A DNA stretch of 64,000 nt from assembly GCA_012522805.1 (NCBI GenBank), contig JAAYJS010000018.1, forward strand, positions 124,001 through 188,000, written 5' to 3'. The notes under the pieces are model-generated. The model did no database searches, was not told where the DNA came from, and saw only the letters and a program-made list of their open reading frames with translations. The DNA comes from Eubacteriaceae bacterium. Its GTDB lineage: Bacteria > Bacillota > Clostridia > Eubacteriales > Eubacteriaceae. Position numbers and translations under genes: made by a program. This document shows, in pieces, positions 15,355-23,545 of this stretch; position 1 is the stretch's first letter; the number at the start of each line of letters is the position of its first letter.

Positions 15355-16854
15355 TCAGTGAGAAATAATAGAATCGATCTTTTGATTGATTTTTTCTACG
15401 TAGGCCAATCCCTCCTCTTCATGAAAGGTTTTAGCCTTAAGGGTTTGCAAACACTCTTCAAAAGCAGCGACCAATACCTCGTTGATTTCGTTATAAATGG
15501 CTACGGTTTCCGGTTTTCTTTCGTGATAATCCTGCCAGGTATCCTTCATATAGTCGAAAAGGTGGTTGGTGATGTCCCGCATGATCTTGGCGAACATGGC
15601 CACCTCCGTGTGGATGTAATCGGTGTCGGCTTCGTAAACAGAATGTTCGGAAACTCTTAAACGCCCCAATTCCGCCAATTGTTGGTAAGACTGGGAGCCC
15701 GCCAGTATGATTTGGTGATGGTACAAGACGTTGACGCTGATATCCAGATGTTCGAGGAGGTCGTTGCGCTTTAAAAAGTCCAAGTTTACTTTTAAATCGT
15801 TTAAGGTGGAGTCCGGCTCAAACATGATAAAACCGACATTCGGCTCAATACCGTGTCGCCGTAAGATACGCAAGGCATTTTCGTTGTCCGACACCGTCGT
15901 GTGTTTATTGAGTCGTTTTAAGGATTCGTCTTTGCCGCTTTCCAAACCGACTAAAATATTTTGCAGCCCGGCATCCACCAGAGCGGCAGTGGTCTCTTCG
16001 TCGATGTCGTTAGCTCGCGCTTCGATACCGAAACGGATTTTTCTGGTTTTCAATAACTCCGCCAAGGCTAAAACACGTTTGCGGCCGTTGCGCCCCGGTC
16101 CATAAAAATTGGGATCGGTAAAATAAAAATAGCGGTAATCTGTGGTCGCCAAGATATGGTCGATTTCGCGGACGATGTTTTCCGGTGAGCGTCCCCGCCA
16201 CTTGCCTTGGGCAATGTGGTCGCCTTCGTAATAGGGGTTAATATAGCAAAAGGTGCAGTTGCCGTAACAACCGCGGGAGCCGAAAATATTCACCTCGCCG
16301 CCGGGGTAGGAGGATGGCTTGCGAATGGGAAAGGGCAAGCTATCCAAATCTTGGACTTGTTGGCCTCTGCTTTGGATAAAACCGTCGCCTTTTCGGGCGG
16401 CAATACCCTGCACTTCGCTAAAATCCGCCAATGAGGATAATAGGTTTAAAATGGTAATCTCATTTTCGCCCATCATGCAGGTGTCGATGGCGGGTGCATT
16501 GTTTAAAATCTCAAGATAGGCAAAGGTCGGGTAATAGCCGTAAACGGAAACATGGGAGATGTTAAATTCACCTTTTATTTTTTCGATGAACCGGTAAAGG
16601 TGGCTGTTGTCTTCCCAATTGTAGACCAGATGAATGCCCAAAAAATCCGGCGGGTCCATGGCGATTTGCTCGTAGATGGTATCGAAACTTAAGTTCTCCA
16701 TATACCCTTCAATGATACGGGTCGGGTAACCGGCTTCAATGCAACGAGCGGCTAAATAGCCGGTGTTTAAACAAGATGCCAAGGTCGTGTTGGCAATGTC
16801 GTTTTGCCGGTCTGCAAACAATTGTCTGGGGTGTTCTAAAAATAATACTTTCAT
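15355..16854 (-). CDS. bzaE: Cobalamin-binding radical SAM enzyme BzaE
   Basis: A 499-residue B12-dependent radical SAM protein, the last enzyme of anaerobic dimethylbenzimidazole synthesis, assigned to the final C-methylation/replacement step that gives DMB. An N-terminal B12-binding-like domain (about residues 1-150, DFLGIHLVYNWEDNS, HVSVYGYYPTFAY) precedes the radical SAM domain with the cluster motif GCYGNCTFCY (CxxxCxxC). The ATG at 16854 follows GGAGGC inside the bzaD end; a start at 16872 would overlap bzaD for no reason. The position as the terminal gene after bzaD matches the bzaABcobTCDE order known from Eubacterium limosum. Function assignment rests on that synteny plus domain type. 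Confidence 0.88.
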   Translation of the reverse strand: MKVLFLEHPRQLFADRQNDIANTTLASCLNTGYLAARCIEAGYPTRIIEGYMENLSFDTIYEQIAMDPPDFLGIHLVYNWEDNSHLYRFIEKIKGEFNISHVSVYGYYPTFAYLEILNNAPAIDTCMMGENEITILNLLSSLADFSEVQGIAARKGDGFIQSRGQQVQDLDSLPFPIRKPSSYPGGEVNIFGSRGCYGNCTFCYINPYYEGDHIAQGKWRGRSPENIVREIDHILATTDYRYFYFTDPNFYGPGRNGRKRVLALAELLKTRKIRFGIEARANDIDEETTAALVDAGLQNILVGLESGKDESLKRLNKHTTVSDNENALRILRRHGIEPNVGFIMFEPDSTLNDLKVNLDFLKRNDLLEHLDISVNVLYHHQIILAGSQSYQQLAELGRLRVSEHSVYEADTDYIHTEVAMFAKIMRDITNHLFDYMKDTWQDYHERKPETVAIYNEINEVLVAAFEECLQTLKAKTFHEEEGLAYVEKINQKIDSIISH

Positions 16855-16856
16855 GA

Positions 16857-18182
16857 TCAAGCCTCCTGCCACATCAATATATTCTTTGTGTTGTGGTACA
16901 CTTCAAGCGCATACCGCAAGGTGTTGGTTTCTTTCGGGTTGTAATAAGTCGGATAGAGGAGATCGGTGCTGTCGTCGATGAGGCCTCTTTCTCTGGCAAT
17001 GCGTTCTATCTCGGTATTGGGCATGATACGAATTAAATTCAGCACAATGGTCCCAATGGTTTTTGACCCTTCGTGGATATTGTAAATGCGGTCGATGAGA
17101 CGTTTGGCTTCATCGACATTTTTTTCAGAAACCGCCGGGGTGTTGACCAGAAAATGATAGACGGTCACAATACCCACATCGGATAAAACCTTTGCTGTGT
17201 GTAGGATATCATCAATGGTTAAGTTTTTCTTTAATATCTTGAGAGCATCTGCTGTTAAGCCGTCGGGGGACAGCGAGAAACACTCACAACCGGATTCGGC
17301 ATAAAGCCGTGCGTTATCCGGCGTCAATAGATTTTCTCTAAAAAAGCCACTCCAACGGATGGGCAATTGGCGTTTGATCAATTCCTTGCAGATTTCGTCC
17401 AAATGGTTGACGGGAAAATTGACGATGGAGTCGGTTAAATGGATACGCGTCACGCCGGAGCGGTGGTAAAGATCGGCGATCTCATCGACGACATCCACCG
17501 GGTTTCTGGTGCGCATACAGGTTCCCGACAAAAGGGGGTAGGAGCAATAGGCACATCGATAACTACAACCTCTTTTGCCTTCGACTCCGATGGATTCCAC
17601 GTATTTGTTGACTTCTAAATAGGGTTTGACCGGTAACAGTTCGCGGTTGGGTACGGTGTATTCCGCCATCTTAAAGGAGGCCACCGGTGGGTTGAGGATG
17701 ACGGCATCCCCTTTGCGGTAGATGACCCCGGGTATATTACCCGGTTGATCGAAATTCTTCAACAAGGGCAGAATATTCTGTTCCGCTTCGCCTACAATCC
17801 CACATTGAATTTGTGTAAACTCTTCCATTAAGCGTTTAGGAAAAAGGGAAAAAGCCGTTCCACCGGCTAGAATCGGTGTGTCCGGCGCATAGGTTTTGAG
17901 CAGGTTTAATGTAATGGCAAAGGGCACGATCAGGGAGTTGGTGCGGTTACCCAAAGGGTCTACATTGCGCAAAGAGACACCGATGAGATCCGGCTGTATG
18001 GCCTCAATTTTTTTCTTTAAATCACCGTAAGCATCGGTGGCCATATTCATATCGTAAAGGCTTAGATCATACTTTTTGCTCCTCTCGATGATACTCGCCA
18101 AAGTGACCAGACCGATGGGGTAAACCCGTTCTATATCGATTCCTTCCATGGAAAGGGTTTGGATCAATAAGATTTTCTTCAT
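16857..18182 (-). CDS. bzaD: Cobalamin-binding radical SAM enzyme BzaD
   Basis: A 441-residue protein with an N-terminal B12-binding domain (LIGVSLRNVDPLGNRTN, PILAGGTAFSLFPKRLM) and a radical SAM domain whose cluster motif is GCSYRCAYCSYP. In the described pathway BzaD methylates 5-methoxybenzimidazole at C6. It starts three bases after the bzaC stop and ends two bases before bzaE, so the genes are translationally linked. It is clearly paralogous in architecture to BzaE; which of the two does which step is taken from known operons, not from sequence here. Confidence 0.88.
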   Translation of the reverse strand: MKKILLIQTLSMEGIDIERVYPIGLVTLASIIERSKKYDLSLYDMNMATDAYGDLKKKIEAIQPDLIGVSLRNVDPLGNRTNSLIVPFAITLNLLKTYAPDTPILAGGTAFSLFPKRLMEEFTQIQCGIVGEAEQNILPLLKNFDQPGNIPGVIYRKGDAVILNPPVASFKMAEYTVPNRELLPVKPYLEVNKYVESIGVEGKRGCSYRCAYCSYPLLSGTCMRTRNPVDVVDEIADLYHRSGVTRIHLTDSIVNFPVNHLDEICKELIKRQLPIRWSGFFRENLLTPDNARLYAESGCECFSLSPDGLTADALKILKKNLTIDDILHTAKVLSDVGIVTVYHFLVNTPAVSEKNVDEAKRLIDRIYNIHEGSKTIGTIVLNLIRIMPNTEIERIARERGLIDDSTDLLYPTYYNPKETNTLRYALEVYHNTKNILMWQEA

Positions 18183-18185
18183 TCT

Positions 18186-19739
18186 CTACTCCAACAACAA
18201 TAATGCATAGTACTTGATGTATTCCCCTTTTTCCTTGAGGGTGTGCATGGTTTCACCCACTTGAGCAACCGTGGCAAACACGTCGATACCGGCTCCCTCC
18301 ATGGAGGGGCGCTTGTGTTTACGGTTGTTACAGGGCTTTGTTCGATCACAATTCGGGCAAATGGAGCAGGGGCCGGCCCAAAAGACAAAAGCCTTGTAAA
18401 AACCTTCTTTAAAGGCAAGAGATTCCGCTTGCAAGGCTTTTCTTTGAAAGACATCCGTGGGCGGTTGGTCTTTCAACAGGTAAGCACGGCGGTAATCCGC
18501 TAAAAGAGACGCTGTTTTTTCTACGGGGTACAAATCGTTGTCCACACATTCTTTTTGATGGGCGGAGCGACAGCCGTAGGAACATTTGTTTTTTGCAAAT
18601 TCCGAAAGGACTACTTGATCCGGGGAAATAGGAATCAACTCCTCAAAGCCCATGGCTTTAATGGGGTGGTAAATTCTCGCCATCGGATCGATTGACAATT
18701 GTTGCAACGGCTCCGGCGATAGGGCAGCAGCCATCAAAGCCGTGTCCGACGGGAGGGGTATTAAAGGAGTTGTGACAAGCCCGGCCTGCTCCAAGCAATG
18801 TTCTACATCCGCTGCTTTGTACACACGACCATTATAGGTGTTGGCAAACATATTGATATCAGAGAAATGCCCCTTAATCGGCCAATGTTCCAAAAAGAAA
18901 TCGTGGATGATTATCAAGCCCTCCGGTTTCAACAAGCGCCGGACTTCTTGAATCACGATGTGGTTTTCGTCCACACCATAGGCATGGACGATATTGGATA
19001 AAATAATCAAGTCGTACTGCTCCGTCATGGGCCAAGGCGCGTCCAAAATATTGCAAGGACTAAAGTGCATGCGATTAAAAACCGTTTCGTCACAACGTTC
19101 TTTTAAATAGTTTTCCGTGATGGGAATCATCTGTCGGATGTCCACCAAAGTGGCGTGACATTGGGGGAAGGCCTCTAAAAAACCTTTGGAAAAGGCACCG
19201 GAGCCGGCGCCGACATCTAAAATATCGCCTTTAAAATCTTTGAAGAAGGGCAAGATTTCCTGTACCTTGGATAAGGCGATATTGTCCATGGCTTTGATGT
19301 AGTTGAGTCGCCTTGCATTCAGGGTTTCTTCGGAGATATCCTCGGGTAAAAAATGCACCCGTTGTCCTTTTTCAAGTGCCCGGCCTAAGGTTTTCCAGTC
19401 TTCTCGGAGGCTTTTACGCCATTGTATATTGTTCCCTTGGTAAAGGGGGCTGTCTTTGAGCAAATACTTTTCCGAAAGGGTGCTGTTGCTCCACATACCA
19501 CGGTATTCGGAAACCAAGTCCAACTCTTTCAGCAATTGTAGGTAACGTTCCAAAGCCTGTGGCTCTAATTTCAGGCGCTTTCCAAGAGCTTCGGTGGAGA
19601 TAGAGGGATGTTCCTGCAAAATCTCAAAAAGGTCTTGCTCCATGGAGAGAAACAAGACCTCGGAATACCAATAGGCGGTTGCCAAATCTTCAATGTATTG
19701 TGGGCCGCCGGTATGGGGATCCCACTTAAGCATTGCCAT
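18186..19739 (-). CDS. bzaC: SAM-dependent O-methyltransferase with C-terminal DUF2284 domain, BzaC
   Basis: A 517-residue enzyme assigned to O-methylation of 5-hydroxybenzimidazole to 5-methoxybenzimidazole. Residues 1-110 form a winged-helix dimerisation domain of plant-type O-methyltransferases (TEALGKRLKLEPQALERYLQLL). Residues 150-340 hold the Rossmann SAM site (GDILDVGAGSGAFSKGF) and the HDFFLEHWPIKG catalytic region. Residues 350-517 are a cysteine-rich DUF2284-like predicted metal-binding domain (CSYGCRSA, GPCSICPNC, KPCNNRKHKRPSMEG). The start overlaps cobT by 14 bases. The role of the fused metal domain is not known to me. Confidence 0.88.
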   Translation of the reverse strand: MAMLKWDPHTGGPQYIEDLATAYWYSEVLFLSMEQDLFEILQEHPSISTEALGKRLKLEPQALERYLQLLKELDLVSEYRGMWSNSTLSEKYLLKDSPLYQGNNIQWRKSLREDWKTLGRALEKGQRVHFLPEDISEETLNARRLNYIKAMDNIALSKVQEILPFFKDFKGDILDVGAGSGAFSKGFLEAFPQCHATLVDIRQMIPITENYLKERCDETVFNRMHFSPCNILDAPWPMTEQYDLIILSNIVHAYGVDENHIVIQEVRRLLKPEGLIIIHDFFLEHWPIKGHFSDINMFANTYNGRVYKAADVEHCLEQAGLVTTPLIPLPSDTALMAAALSPEPLQQLSIDPMARIYHPIKAMGFEELIPISPDQVVLSEFAKNKCSYGCRSAHQKECVDNDLYPVEKTASLLADYRRAYLLKDQPPTDVFQRKALQAESLAFKEGFYKAFVFWAGPCSICPNCDRTKPCNNRKHKRPSMEGAGIDVFATVAQVGETMHTLKEKGEYIKYYALLLLE

Positions 19740-20796
19740 CAGTCACCCCGGCATCTTCAAAGGAAAGCATATCGTTGATGCAGCGGCAGGCACATTCACA
19801 AATGTGGAAGGCAACAGCGGCACCGGTACCTTCTCCTAAGCATAGGTTGAGTTGCAAGAGGGGCTCTAATCCCAATGCTTCCCACATGTATTGGTGCCCC
19901 GGTTCTTCCGAACGGTGGGAGGCGATCATATAATCCAGCGTTTCAGGTTTCAGTTTCTTGGCGATCATGGCACCGGCGGTAGAGATAAAACCGTCGACCA
20001 CAACGGGGATGCGGTGGTAGGCTGCGGCCAAAACGGTACCCGCAATTCCTGCGATGTCGTAACCGCCAATTTTGGAGAGCACGTCGATGGCATCCTCCGG
20101 ATCCGGATTGTTTAAAGCGATGGAATCTTTAATAACTTCGGCTTTGTTTAGTAATTGGGTGTTGTTGAGTCCGGTTCCTTTGCCGGTAACTGCAGTGACG
20201 GGGTAACCGCCCAATACAGCGACAACGGCAGAACTCGGGGTGGTGTTGCCGATACCCAATTCGCCGGTACCGACCAATTTCAAATCGTATTTTTCGATGG
20301 CGTCGGAGACGACAGCAAAGCTTCTTTCCAAGGCTTCCACGGCTTGTTCTCTGGTCATGGCAGGACCTTTTCTCATATTTTCGCTGCCGTAGGCAATTTT
20401 ACAATCCACCACTTGACCGGAGTCCACCAACTCGTTTAAGTCTTTTTTAACACCCATATCTACCAGACAGACGGTACCTCCGGCGGCTTTGGTCAGAACA
20501 TTGACGCCGGCTCCACCTCTAACGATGTTGTCGATCATTTCCAAAGTAACGATTTGAGGAAAGGCCGAAACACCTTCGTCGGCGACACCGTGGTCGGCAG
20601 CCATGGTAAAGATCATTTTATTGGTAACTTCCGGTGAATCGGTTCTTTCAATGGCTGAAATTTGTTGGGCAACGTCTAAGATTTTTCCCAAACTCCAAGT
20701 TGGAATGGCCAAGCCCTTTAGCTTTTCGGTAGCCTTAGCTTCCCAATGGGCATCCTTCGGTTCGATACCGTTTAAAATTTCTTCTAATGTTTTCAT
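19726..20796 (-). CDS. cobT: Nicotinate-nucleotide--dimethylbenzimidazole phosphoribosyltransferase
   Basis: A 356-residue enzyme that transfers phosphoribose from nicotinate mononucleotide to DMB, giving alpha-ribazole phosphate for the cobalamin nucleotide loop. Conserved blocks include FTMAADHGVADEGVSAFPQ, LVGTGELGIGNTTPSSAV and VVVDGFISTAGAM; the catalytic Glu is in LCLGEGTGAA near the C-terminus. Placed between bzaB and bzaC, as in acetogen bza operons, it lets the new base be activated as soon as it is made. No other cobalamin-assembly gene occurs in the window. Confidence 0.96.
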   Translation of the reverse strand: MKTLEEILNGIEPKDAHWEAKATEKLKGLAIPTWSLGKILDVAQQISAIERTDSPEVTNKMIFTMAADHGVADEGVSAFPQIVTLEMIDNIVRGGAGVNVLTKAAGGTVCLVDMGVKKDLNELVDSGQVVDCKIAYGSENMRKGPAMTREQAVEALERSFAVVSDAIEKYDLKLVGTGELGIGNTTPSSAVVAVLGGYPVTAVTGKGTGLNNTQLLNKAEVIKDSIALNNPDPEDAIDVLSKIGGYDIAGIAGTVLAAAYHRIPVVVDGFISTAGAMIAKKLKPETLDYMIASHRSEEPGHQYMWEALGLEPLLQLNLCLGEGTGAAVAFHICECACRCINDMLSFEDAGVTDGNA

Positions 20797-20853: not shown

Positions 20854-22140
20854 CTAGGCAATTTCAAAATATTCCGCTGCGATATCGGCCAAACATTTTT
20901 CGTCACCACAGGCGGCACAGCCGTCATCTGTGGCTTTTTCCAATGCCATTTTAGCACGTAAGGTTTCAGGATCCAAGGCGTTGGCAATTTGAGCCTCTTT
21001 GTCCAAGGCAACTCTCGCTTTGGACATCGCCAAAGATCGGTTCCAAGCAGGGCCACCGCGGCGCAAAACGTTGGCGCAATCGGCGGCAATACGGGTGGTT
21101 CGCACACCGATGCGAACATCTTCTTCGGTGGGTAAACCTAGATGTTCAGCAGGGGTTAAATAGCACAGGAAGTCTGCGCCGTGTAAGCCCGCATAGGCAC
21201 CGCCGATGGCACCGGTAATGTTGTCGTAACCCGGGGCAACATCCGTCGCCAAAAATCCTAAAATGTAGTAGGGAACACCGTGGCACAAACGCTTTTGCAT
21301 TTGCATGGTGGTAGCGATGTGGTTTAAGGGTACGTGACCCGGTCCCTCGATCATCACCTGTACACCGGCTTCCAAAGCTCTCTTGGTTAAATCGCCGGCA
21401 ACCATGAGCCCGGTTATTTGGGCGGCATCTAAGGAGTCGGCGTTGGCACCGGGACGAATCGCGTCACCGATACTCAAAACCGTATCCGTGGCCTTTAAGA
21501 TCTCCAGTAGACGGTCAAAATGTTCAAACAGAGGGTTTTCCTTTTGGTTGTGGAACATCCATGCGGTTAAAAAGGAGCCACCCCGGCTCACCACGTCGCT
21601 GACACGGCCGGTTCGTTGCAGGGCGTTTAGAACATCCCAGTTCAACGCGGAGTGAATGGCCATAAAGTCCATCCCTTCCTGGCATTGTTTTTCGATGGTT
21701 TCCATTAAGTCGTCGGTGGTCATATCCACCATGGCGCCGTGTTTTTCAATGGCTTCAACAGAGGCCTGGTACACCGGCACGCAACCGGCGGCTATATTGG
21801 AAATGCTCAAACTTTGTTTGCCCATGGCGTCGATATCGTCCCCGGTGGAGAGGTCCATAAAAGCATTGGCACCGCATTCTTCCAGCATCATCAGCTTTTT
21901 GGCTTCCATTTCCATGTCGTTGCGGTCCGAGGAAGTACCCATTAAACCGTTGACTTTGACATCCAAACCGGTGCCGATACCGCAAATTTGACTGCGGTCT
22001 CTGTATTTGTTTTTAGGTATGACGATATGGCCTTTGGCTACTCCGGCTCTGATAAACTCCGGGGTCACACCTTCTAATTCGGCAACGATTTCCATTTCTT
22101 CGGTTATTTTTCCCTTGCGGGCTTGTAAGATTTGCGTCAT
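20854..22140 (-). CDS. bzaB: ThiC-like radical SAM enzyme BzaB
   Basis: A 428-residue paralogue of HMP-phosphate synthase ThiC. Together with BzaA it is assigned to conversion of aminoimidazole ribotide to 5-hydroxybenzimidazole. ThiC-family blocks are intact (GTGLDVKVNGLMGTSSDR, IEGPGHVPLNHI, FLATDVAPGYDNITGAIGG, DFLCYLTPAEHLGLP) and the C-terminal Fe-S motif is CAACGDEKC (CX2CX4C). Its ATG overlaps the bzaA stop as ATGA. A pair of ThiC-like genes next to cobT identifies the bza pathway rather than thiamine synthesis. Confidence 0.92.
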   Translation of the reverse strand: MTQILQARKGKITEEMEIVAELEGVTPEFIRAGVAKGHIVIPKNKYRDRSQICGIGTGLDVKVNGLMGTSSDRNDMEMEAKKLMMLEECGANAFMDLSTGDDIDAMGKQSLSISNIAAGCVPVYQASVEAIEKHGAMVDMTTDDLMETIEKQCQEGMDFMAIHSALNWDVLNALQRTGRVSDVVSRGGSFLTAWMFHNQKENPLFEHFDRLLEILKATDTVLSIGDAIRPGANADSLDAAQITGLMVAGDLTKRALEAGVQVMIEGPGHVPLNHIATTMQMQKRLCHGVPYYILGFLATDVAPGYDNITGAIGGAYAGLHGADFLCYLTPAEHLGLPTEEDVRIGVRTTRIAADCANVLRRGGPAWNRSLAMSKARVALDKEAQIANALDPETLRAKMALEKATDDGCAACGDEKCLADIAAEYFEIA

Positions 22141-23441
22141 TGACGGGCCTCCTGATTTTGATTCGGTCTTAAATATTTTTCTACGATACGCATGGCACAG
22201 TATTTACCGCACATGGTACATTCCGATGTAAAAGAGGTGGAACGTTCTCTCCAAACCCTCTCGGCGGTTTCGGGATCGATGGATAAGGCAAATTGTTTTT
22301 TCCAATCCATTTCCCGTCGTGCAACGGACATGTCAAAATCCCATTTAATAGCCTGTTCATGGCCTTTGGCCACGTCTCCGGCATGGGCGGCGATACGAGA
22401 AGCCATGACGCCTTCATAGACATCTTCCGGAGAGGGCATGCCGATGTGTTCCGCCGGGGTGACATAGCATAAGAAGTCGGCGCCGGCATAAGCGGCAATG
22501 GCGCCACCAATAGCGGAGGTTACATGGTCCATTCCGGCGGCGGTGTCGGTGGGCAGGCAGCCGAAAACAAAGTAAGGTGCTCCGTGGCAGAGTTTCTTCT
22601 GTAGTTTGACGGTGGTTTCTATTTCGTCTAAGGGCACATGTCCCGGACCTTTAACCATGACCTGTACGCCGGCTTCTCTGGCCCTACGGCATAGGGAACC
22701 TAAAAGCACCAGTTCTTCGACTTGAGCGGCGTCTAGGGAGTCGGCGATGCAACCGGGGCGCATGCCGTCGGCAAAACTCAACACCACGTCGTATTTTTTG
22801 CAAATCGCGATGATTTCGTCGAAACGGGTGTAAAGTGGGTTTTCAGTTTTATTCAGAAGCATCCAACCGATGAGGTGGCTTCCACCATAGGAAACCAACG
22901 GGTCGATGCGTCCTTCTTCTTTAGCGCGCTGAATGACGGACAGGGTGGTGCCCGGATGCATGGCTAAAAAGGCAACCCCTTCCTTCGCTTGGCGCTCAAT
23001 CATTTCGATCATGTCGTCGGCGGTAATGTGAACGGAAGATCCGCTCTTAGCTTCGGCTTCCGCCAGCGTTTGATACATGGGCAAGGTGCCCACGGGGCAG
23101 GTAACCGTTGAGAGGATTCTCTCTCTTAAGCCTTCGATATCGCCGCGAACGGAGAGATCCATCAGGGTATCCGTGTGGGCTTTTAAAGCTTGTTCGACTT
23201 TTTCCCATTCGCCATCCGGGGTATCTGTTGTTTCGTACATGCCCACAGAGGCACTGACTTTTGTAAACAACCCTTTGCCAATGGCAACCGGATCGACCTG
23301 CGGTCTGGAACTTTTTAAAATGACGATATTTCCGGCGGCAATGCCGTCGCAAATAAACTCGGGGGTGACCCCTTCTTTTTCAGCGACGCGAATCATTTCC
23401 GGGGTCAATTCACCTCGACGTGCACTTTCAAGTATGGTCAT
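22137..23441 (-). CDS. bzaA: ThiC-like radical SAM enzyme BzaA
   Basis: A 434-residue ThiC paralogue and first gene of the operon. Core blocks are present (VKGPGHVPLDEI, GCLPTDTAAGMDHVTSAIGG, DFLCYVTPAEHIGMP). The C-terminal cluster motif reads CTMCGKYC, that is CX2CX3C, one residue shorter than the CX2CX4C of ThiC and of the neighbouring BzaB. The ATG at 23441 is chosen because GAGGAGG precedes it; the longer frame to 23537 would run through the riboswitch terminator. The leader carries a cobalamin riboswitch, so expression should fall when cobalamin is abundant. Confidence 0.92.
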   Translation of the reverse strand: MTILESARRGELTPEMIRVAEKEGVTPEFICDGIAAGNIVILKSSRPQVDPVAIGKGLFTKVSASVGMYETTDTPDGEWEKVEQALKAHTDTLMDLSVRGDIEGLRERILSTVTCPVGTLPMYQTLAEAEAKSGSSVHITADDMIEMIERQAKEGVAFLAMHPGTTLSVIQRAKEEGRIDPLVSYGGSHLIGWMLLNKTENPLYTRFDEIIAICKKYDVVLSFADGMRPGCIADSLDAAQVEELVLLGSLCRRAREAGVQVMVKGPGHVPLDEIETTVKLQKKLCHGAPYFVFGCLPTDTAAGMDHVTSAIGGAIAAYAGADFLCYVTPAEHIGMPSPEDVYEGVMASRIAAHAGDVAKGHEQAIKWDFDMSVARREMDWKKQFALSIDPETAERVWRERSTSFTSECTMCGKYCAMRIVEKYLRPNQNQEARQ

Positions 23442-23478
23442 ACTTTCCTCCTCAAATTGCAATTGTTTTTGTAAAATA

Positions 23479-23530
23479 AAAAATCCATAGTCGAAAGAGT
23501 GAGATAGCATTCTCTCGACTATGGATTTTG
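23479..23530 (-). terminator. Riboswitch-controlled terminator before bzaA
   Basis: Reading leftward, an about 19-bp stem (AAAATCCATAGTCGAGAGA with its near-complement) is followed by TTTTTTATTTT. It lies between the aptamer and the bzaA ribosome site, so it is the natural expression platform for termination in the ligand-bound state. Confidence 0.88.
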
Positions 23531-23545
23531 CCTTCACCCATAGGT

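Follow-up and report, generated by a model that had tools for sequence, protein, structure and literature searches.

The bza operon of the window

The window, the whole 64,000-nucleotide stretch of Eubacteriaceae DNA that was analysed, holds a bza operon on its minus strand. It comprises the ThiC-like genes bzaA (22137..23537; ThiC_Rad_SAM, 586 bits) and bzaB (20854..22140; TIGR04386, 761 bits), the phosphoribosyltransferase gene cobT (19726..20796; TIGR03160, 406.6 bits), bzaC (18186-19739), bzaD (16857..18182), which encodes a B12-binding radical SAM protein (TIGR04385, 714.8 bits against a cut-off of 450), and bzaE (15355..16872; Radical_SAM, 5.1e-21). The last of these is a second B12-binding radical SAM gene that occupies the bzaE place in the operon, its B12-binding match in Pfam being 25 bits, under the cut-off of 32, and its product is the partner proposed below for the domain under study. 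It shares 68% identity with the last operon gene in Eubacterium callanderi, which we take to be the strain group studied as E. limosum, and the window's bzaA shares 79% with the first.

The bzaC open reading frame starts with ATG, encodes 517 aa, overlaps cobT by 14 bases and is separated from bzaD by 3 bases. Residues 1-350 (18690..19739, minus strand) form the methyltransferase part, with Pfam matches to Dimerisation at 12-93 and Methyltransf_2 at 143-320 (E 3.1e-14) and the motifs ILDVGAGSGAF, HDFF and NTYNG. Residues 351-517 and the stop codon (18186..18689, minus strand) form a C-terminal domain, of which residues 371-516 match DUF2284 (PF10050) with a score of 80.2 bits (curated cut-off 25; E 1.9e-22), so that the assignment is not due to chance. 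The motifs CSYGCR, GPCSICPNC and KPCNNRKHKRP, which the preliminary description had placed after the methyltransferase in a DUF2284-like domain, are all present as quoted, and the domain is DUF2284. Its cysteines lie in two groups on the minus strand, C386, C390 and C398 (18546..18584) and C458, C461, C464 and C470 (18330..18368). By homology to the E. limosum-group BzaC and by its position in the bza operon the gene belongs to BzaC, and its product is, on the same grounds, a known vitamin-B12 building enzyme carrying an extra cysteine-rich domain.

Occurrence of the fusion

BzaD is present in 21 of the 398 genomes of the phylum sample, the window's genome included. In the 20 loci examined around 19 BzaD genomes (G000 and G338 were left out), BzaC carries DUF2284 in 19, including L047 with its start cut off, and is bare in L046. 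A scan of named genomes made with the methyltransferase part alone returned 126 relatives, the best 80 of which were kept; by record title these belong to Bacillota, Nitrospirota, Chloroflexota, Desulfobacterota and others. In this set, which is biased to close relatives and under-samples divergent BzaC, the protein is fused in 63 of the 80 loci, E. callanderi included, and unfused in 17, among them L065, cut by a contig end, and L079, where the domain is broken. Judged by these sequences, the BzaC-DUF2284 fusion is the usual form of BzaC and no peculiarity of the window. A lone fused BzaC is found in Candidatus Formimonas warabiya (L100:9932-11536), where no other bza genes were recognised within ~10 kb.

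Association of the domain with bzaE

Within the phylum sample, bzaE occurs in 26 of the 398 genomes (A4, E up to 1e-100) and a bza-type DUF2284 domain of at least 200 bits in 28, with 23 genomes shared. For comparison at the level of the locus, 109 loci and the window were reduced to 93 distinct BzaC rows, leaving out L052, L065, L072, L083, L275, L112 and L268 (truncated, duplicate or pseudogene), ten identical sequences and G080. DUF2284 is found in the locus in 73 of the 80 rows with bzaE (71 fused, 2 as a neighbouring gene) versus 2 of the 13 rows without it; the Fisher value of 3.5e-8 is not a fair probability, because the rows are related. Absence of bzaE was verified genome-wide, with the exception of L103, for which ~10 kb downstream was covered, and a 206-bit bzaE-like match in G404 (L088) was scored as a paralogue.

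Relatedness is taken into account by the tree of the methyltransferase part, on which nine independent pairs differing in bzaE can be drawn. DUF2284 goes the same way as bzaE in seven of these and the opposite way in 0 or 1, with a median sign-test p of 0.016 (range 0.016-0.07). An association with bzaD instead was considered and set aside as weaker: a mean of 4.2 of 8 pairs agree, at a median p of 0.125 as against 0.016.

Bare BzaC and separate domains

Eight genomes combine bare BzaC with bzaE: G067 and seven members of the Acetobacterium group, two of which are labelled just Firmicutes or Bacillota. In six of the seven there is a single bza-type DUF2284, on a contig other than that of bzaE, versus a second bza-type copy in none of 14 relatives with fused BzaC (Fisher 1.3e-4); one of the 14 has a further stand-alone domain of 121 bits. 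All six of these trans copies consist of a degenerate methyltransferase part and a DUF2284 domain of 243-248 bits; NTYNG is lost, as is the SAM motif in the aligned rows. G067 likewise has its single bza-type DUF2284 elsewhere, on a catalytically degenerate methyltransferase. In G398, a 2.7-Mb draft with bare BzaC and bzaE, a bza-type DUF2284 was not found. On the domain tree the trans copies L159-L162 fall inside the Acetobacterium BzaC clade and the G067 copy clusters with the copies from G181, G206 and G255, which implies that this state arose at least twice. Seven rows with bzaE lack the domain in the locus, and five of these form one lineage beside L051 and L046, so that the argument from trans copies rests on two origins.

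A further arrangement is seen in L261 and L262 (G252 and G276, of one genus), where DUF2284 is its own gene between the methyltransferase gene and bzaE, and bzaD is absent. The methyltransferases here are divergent, keeping 39-40 of 64 invariant residues, and the pathway may therefore differ. The preliminary description had proposed looking for stand-alone DUF2284 genes in bza clusters that lack the fusion; this search found them in L261 and L262, and, for the Acetobacterium group, copies on other contigs.

The surroundings of the trans copies offer another possible partner. In L159 (Acetobacterium), UbiD/hydantoinase/ECF-type genes adjoin the trans copy, and in L263 and L264, from genomes of the G181 type, a dead-methyltransferase-DUF2284 gene lies beside genes for UbiX, hydantoinase A and B, UbiD and an ECF transporter. 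Hydantoinase A lies within ~12 kb of the trans copy in five of the six Acetobacterium-group genomes, and genes of this kind may be the true partner of the trans copies. The link is not strict, since five Acetobacterium genomes with fused BzaC and without a second DUF2284 copy also have hydantoinase A. The hydantoinase A homologues L307, L308, L309 and L310, from four Acetobacterium genomes, each contain one in-frame TAG, possibly read as pyrrolysine.

Cysteines and predicted fold

Across 67 aligned relatives, the window included, C386, C390, C398, C458, C461 and C464 each occur in all 67 rows and C470 in 65. Six DUF2284 stretches contain an in-frame TGA, and four give a readable domain, in which C386 and C390 are kept, C398 is replaced by histidine and C458 and C461 are gone; the TGA coincides with C464 in three of them and lies one residue further on in the other. 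The pattern suggests residues 386, 390, 398 and 464 as putative core ligands. The genes with TGA at or next to the C464 position (L327, L328, L329 and L330) probably encode selenoproteins.

The full-length BzaC model is poor in the cysteine loops, and the domain was therefore modelled alone, with a mean pLDDT of 90.4. Its best VIA-align match reaches Z 7.6 (rmsd 3.5, 126 aligned), below the level that would indicate kinship, and its best Foldseek match E 0.1; the 50 VIA-align matches listed are, by title, presumably nitroreductase-type proteins. Searching by sequence returned no solved structural relative of the domain up to E 10.

A proposed role at the BzaE step

We consider it probable that DUF2284 is an accessory module for BzaE, and not for BzaC or BzaA/B, with the methyltransferase part acting independently. 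This reading is built on sequence features, namely the architecture, the conserved cysteines, a distribution and losses shared with bzaE, and the split and trans forms; assistance to BzaE is the most likely role because the domain tracks bzaE, survives in trans or as a separate gene, and was in Desulfosporosinus lost separately from bzaE around an intact bzaD. What is new is the evidence that this second domain serves BzaE, the fusion itself being ordinary for BzaC.

In the proposed scheme, the methyltransferase part of BzaC would O-methylate the hydroxybenzimidazole ligand unaided, and BzaE, assisted by DUF2284, would convert the ring methoxy group to a methyl group, giving dimethylbenzimidazole. 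By our reasoning, replacing methoxy by methyl would call for additional reducing equivalents, over and above what the two methylations use; the module would supply electrons for this exchange, the methylations by BzaC and BzaD needing none. The cysteines may hold an iron-sulfur cluster or another metal, and fusion to BzaC would put the module near the ligand. More tentatively, BzaE could be seen as a two-protein system for turning an aromatic methoxy into a methyl group, in which a B12 radical SAM enzyme requires a dedicated cysteine-rich DUF2284 redox partner, present as part of BzaC, as a separate gene or attached to a dead methyltransferase encoded elsewhere in the genome. We know of no mechanism for this exchange, with which the anaerobic synthesis of the vitamin-B12 ligand ends. 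A partner that disappears together with BzaE, and persists elsewhere in genomes whose operon lacks it, makes a direct test possible; it may also account for a possible stalling of bza operons moved to another host, and it gives a first functional handle on DUF2284.

Several genomes run counter to this reading. G181, G206 and G255, of one genus, keep a dead-methyltransferase-DUF2284 protein with bzaE absent, the only B12 radical SAM protein being one of 69-73 bits, 15-19 kb away. Fused BzaC without bzaE is found in L100 (G413) and in L267 (G108), where the contig ends in the gene. In G237 the domain is retained in a deletion chimera, and in G080 bzaE and methyltransferase fragments are present with the bza-type domain absent. 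The draft G398, with bzaE and no bza-type domain found, is a further counter-example. In a genome consisting of a single contig, pieces of bzaA, cobT and DUF2284 are joined in a 412-aa chimera (L266:9318-10556), which resembles what a deletion in a bza operon would leave behind.

Among the alternatives, it is somewhat doubtful that the domain is a module for corrinoid or metal handling, which would for instance load or reduce the cobalamin of BzaE and not donate electrons to a substrate radical. Two stand-alone DUF2284 genes of the window's genome (L333 and L334) adjoin corrinoid-protein genes, as such a module might, and the cobalamin enzymes QueG and RdhA are among the nitroreductase-type structural matches listed; however, a structural Z below 8 is weak, and BzaD, which has a B12-binding domain, occurs without DUF2284 in L105 and L095. 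Corrinoid neighbours were found at 7 of 24 stand-alone DUF2284 loci; leaving out the two that supplied the queries gives 5 of 22, compared with 1 of 20 control windows drawn from six of the genomes. This is not a significant enrichment (p 0.19), and a common partner for the stand-alone genes was rejected. The seven stand-alone loci for which genes were listed have varied neighbours; L333 is also adjoined by URO-D-type methyltransferase and pterin-binding genes.

It is unlikely that linkage explains the pattern throughout, DUF2284 being simply the end of bzaC near bzaD and bzaE, liable to joint deletion and with no task at the BzaE step. Such a deletion fits the Moorella pair G013 and G132, whose operons share 96% identity as far as the domain junction, where the alignment breaks and DUF2284 and bzaE are jointly missing from G013; linkage alone accounts for this pair. 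The bare loci L103, L108, L120, L270 and L271, which have neither bzaD nor bzaE, are also as linkage would have them. In L105, L095 and L079, however, bzaD remains between the two losses, BzaC being bare in L105 and L095 and the domain broken by an internal deletion in L079. Compared with L077, the Desulfosporosinus locus L105 has lost ~418 bp of DUF2284 and lacks bzaE with bzaD intact, which argues for two separate losses, and linkage therefore does not explain all cases. The domain is also kept where bzaE is present without bzaD, fused in L099, L126 (Moorella) and L272, and it is kept too in L273 (Moorella) and the G390 loci (L127 was scored as lacking bzaD, yet holds a fragmentary bzaD); it is also retained in trans or as a separate gene.

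That the domain helps BzaC itself, through stability, dimer formation or hand-over of the ligand to CobT, and can be dispensed with in some lineages would suit the fusion in 63 of the 80 named loci and the methyltransferase-like scaffold still on the trans copies, but is distinctly unlikely given that the correlation is with bzaE, that the trans copies retain the domain with catalytic motifs lost, and that 59-64 of the 64 invariant methyltransferase residues are intact in each of 13 rows with bare BzaC (L079 with its broken DUF2284 among them; the bare_L057 row is a fused BzaC and was left out). The same 13 rows support the earlier expectation of a methyltransferase independent of the domain. 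The suggestion that the domain receives the BzaA/B product is not supported, since bzaA-bzaB-cobT-bzaC clusters with bare BzaC occur in L108 (G408) and G013, where no DUF2284 was found genome-wide. The extra redox step once proposed for the domain would now fall at the BzaE step, as in the BzaE-accessory reading that we favour.

Comparison with known systems

Passages of PMC8123684 and PMC9405231 deal with bza in E. limosum and A. woodii. Together with passages of PMC6461909, PMC8620254, PMC11697101, PMC11321594, PMC13188914 and PMC7883539, these make up the literature covered; the passages found make no mention of the DUF2284 domain of BzaC, which Hazra 2015 and Mathur 2020 may describe, and those on DUF2284 contain no treatment of bza.

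The stand-alone DUF2284 proteins L001-L003 of the window's genome belong to the same Pfam family as the BzaC domain, but score 20-51 bits on the bza-type profile versus 246 for the window's domain; the best stand-alone DUF2284 in the 398 genomes reaches 154 bits. Another methyltransferase-DUF2284 fusion is the arsenite methyltransferase/DUF2284 selenoprotein NF041536, to which the window's protein is most similar over residues 353-517 (E 2.7e-24). Membership of that family was rejected at 85.3 bits versus a curated cut-off of 575, and the window's bzaC, unlike the selenoprotein, has no in-frame TGA.

The bare BzaC proteins of Moorella G013, an Acetobacterium woodii isolate (L053) and Syntrophomonas (L120) have the same methyltransferase with motifs intact, but unlike the window's protein are without DUF2284, the G013 bzaC gene stopping at the domain junction. 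The window's BzaC resembles that of E. callanderi FD (L049), with the same methyltransferase-DUF2284 architecture and 55% identity over the whole length. It has VDN after C398, where most other aligned rows shown have PPN, and the window's operon has the gene order of E. callanderi, with no difference in layout seen.
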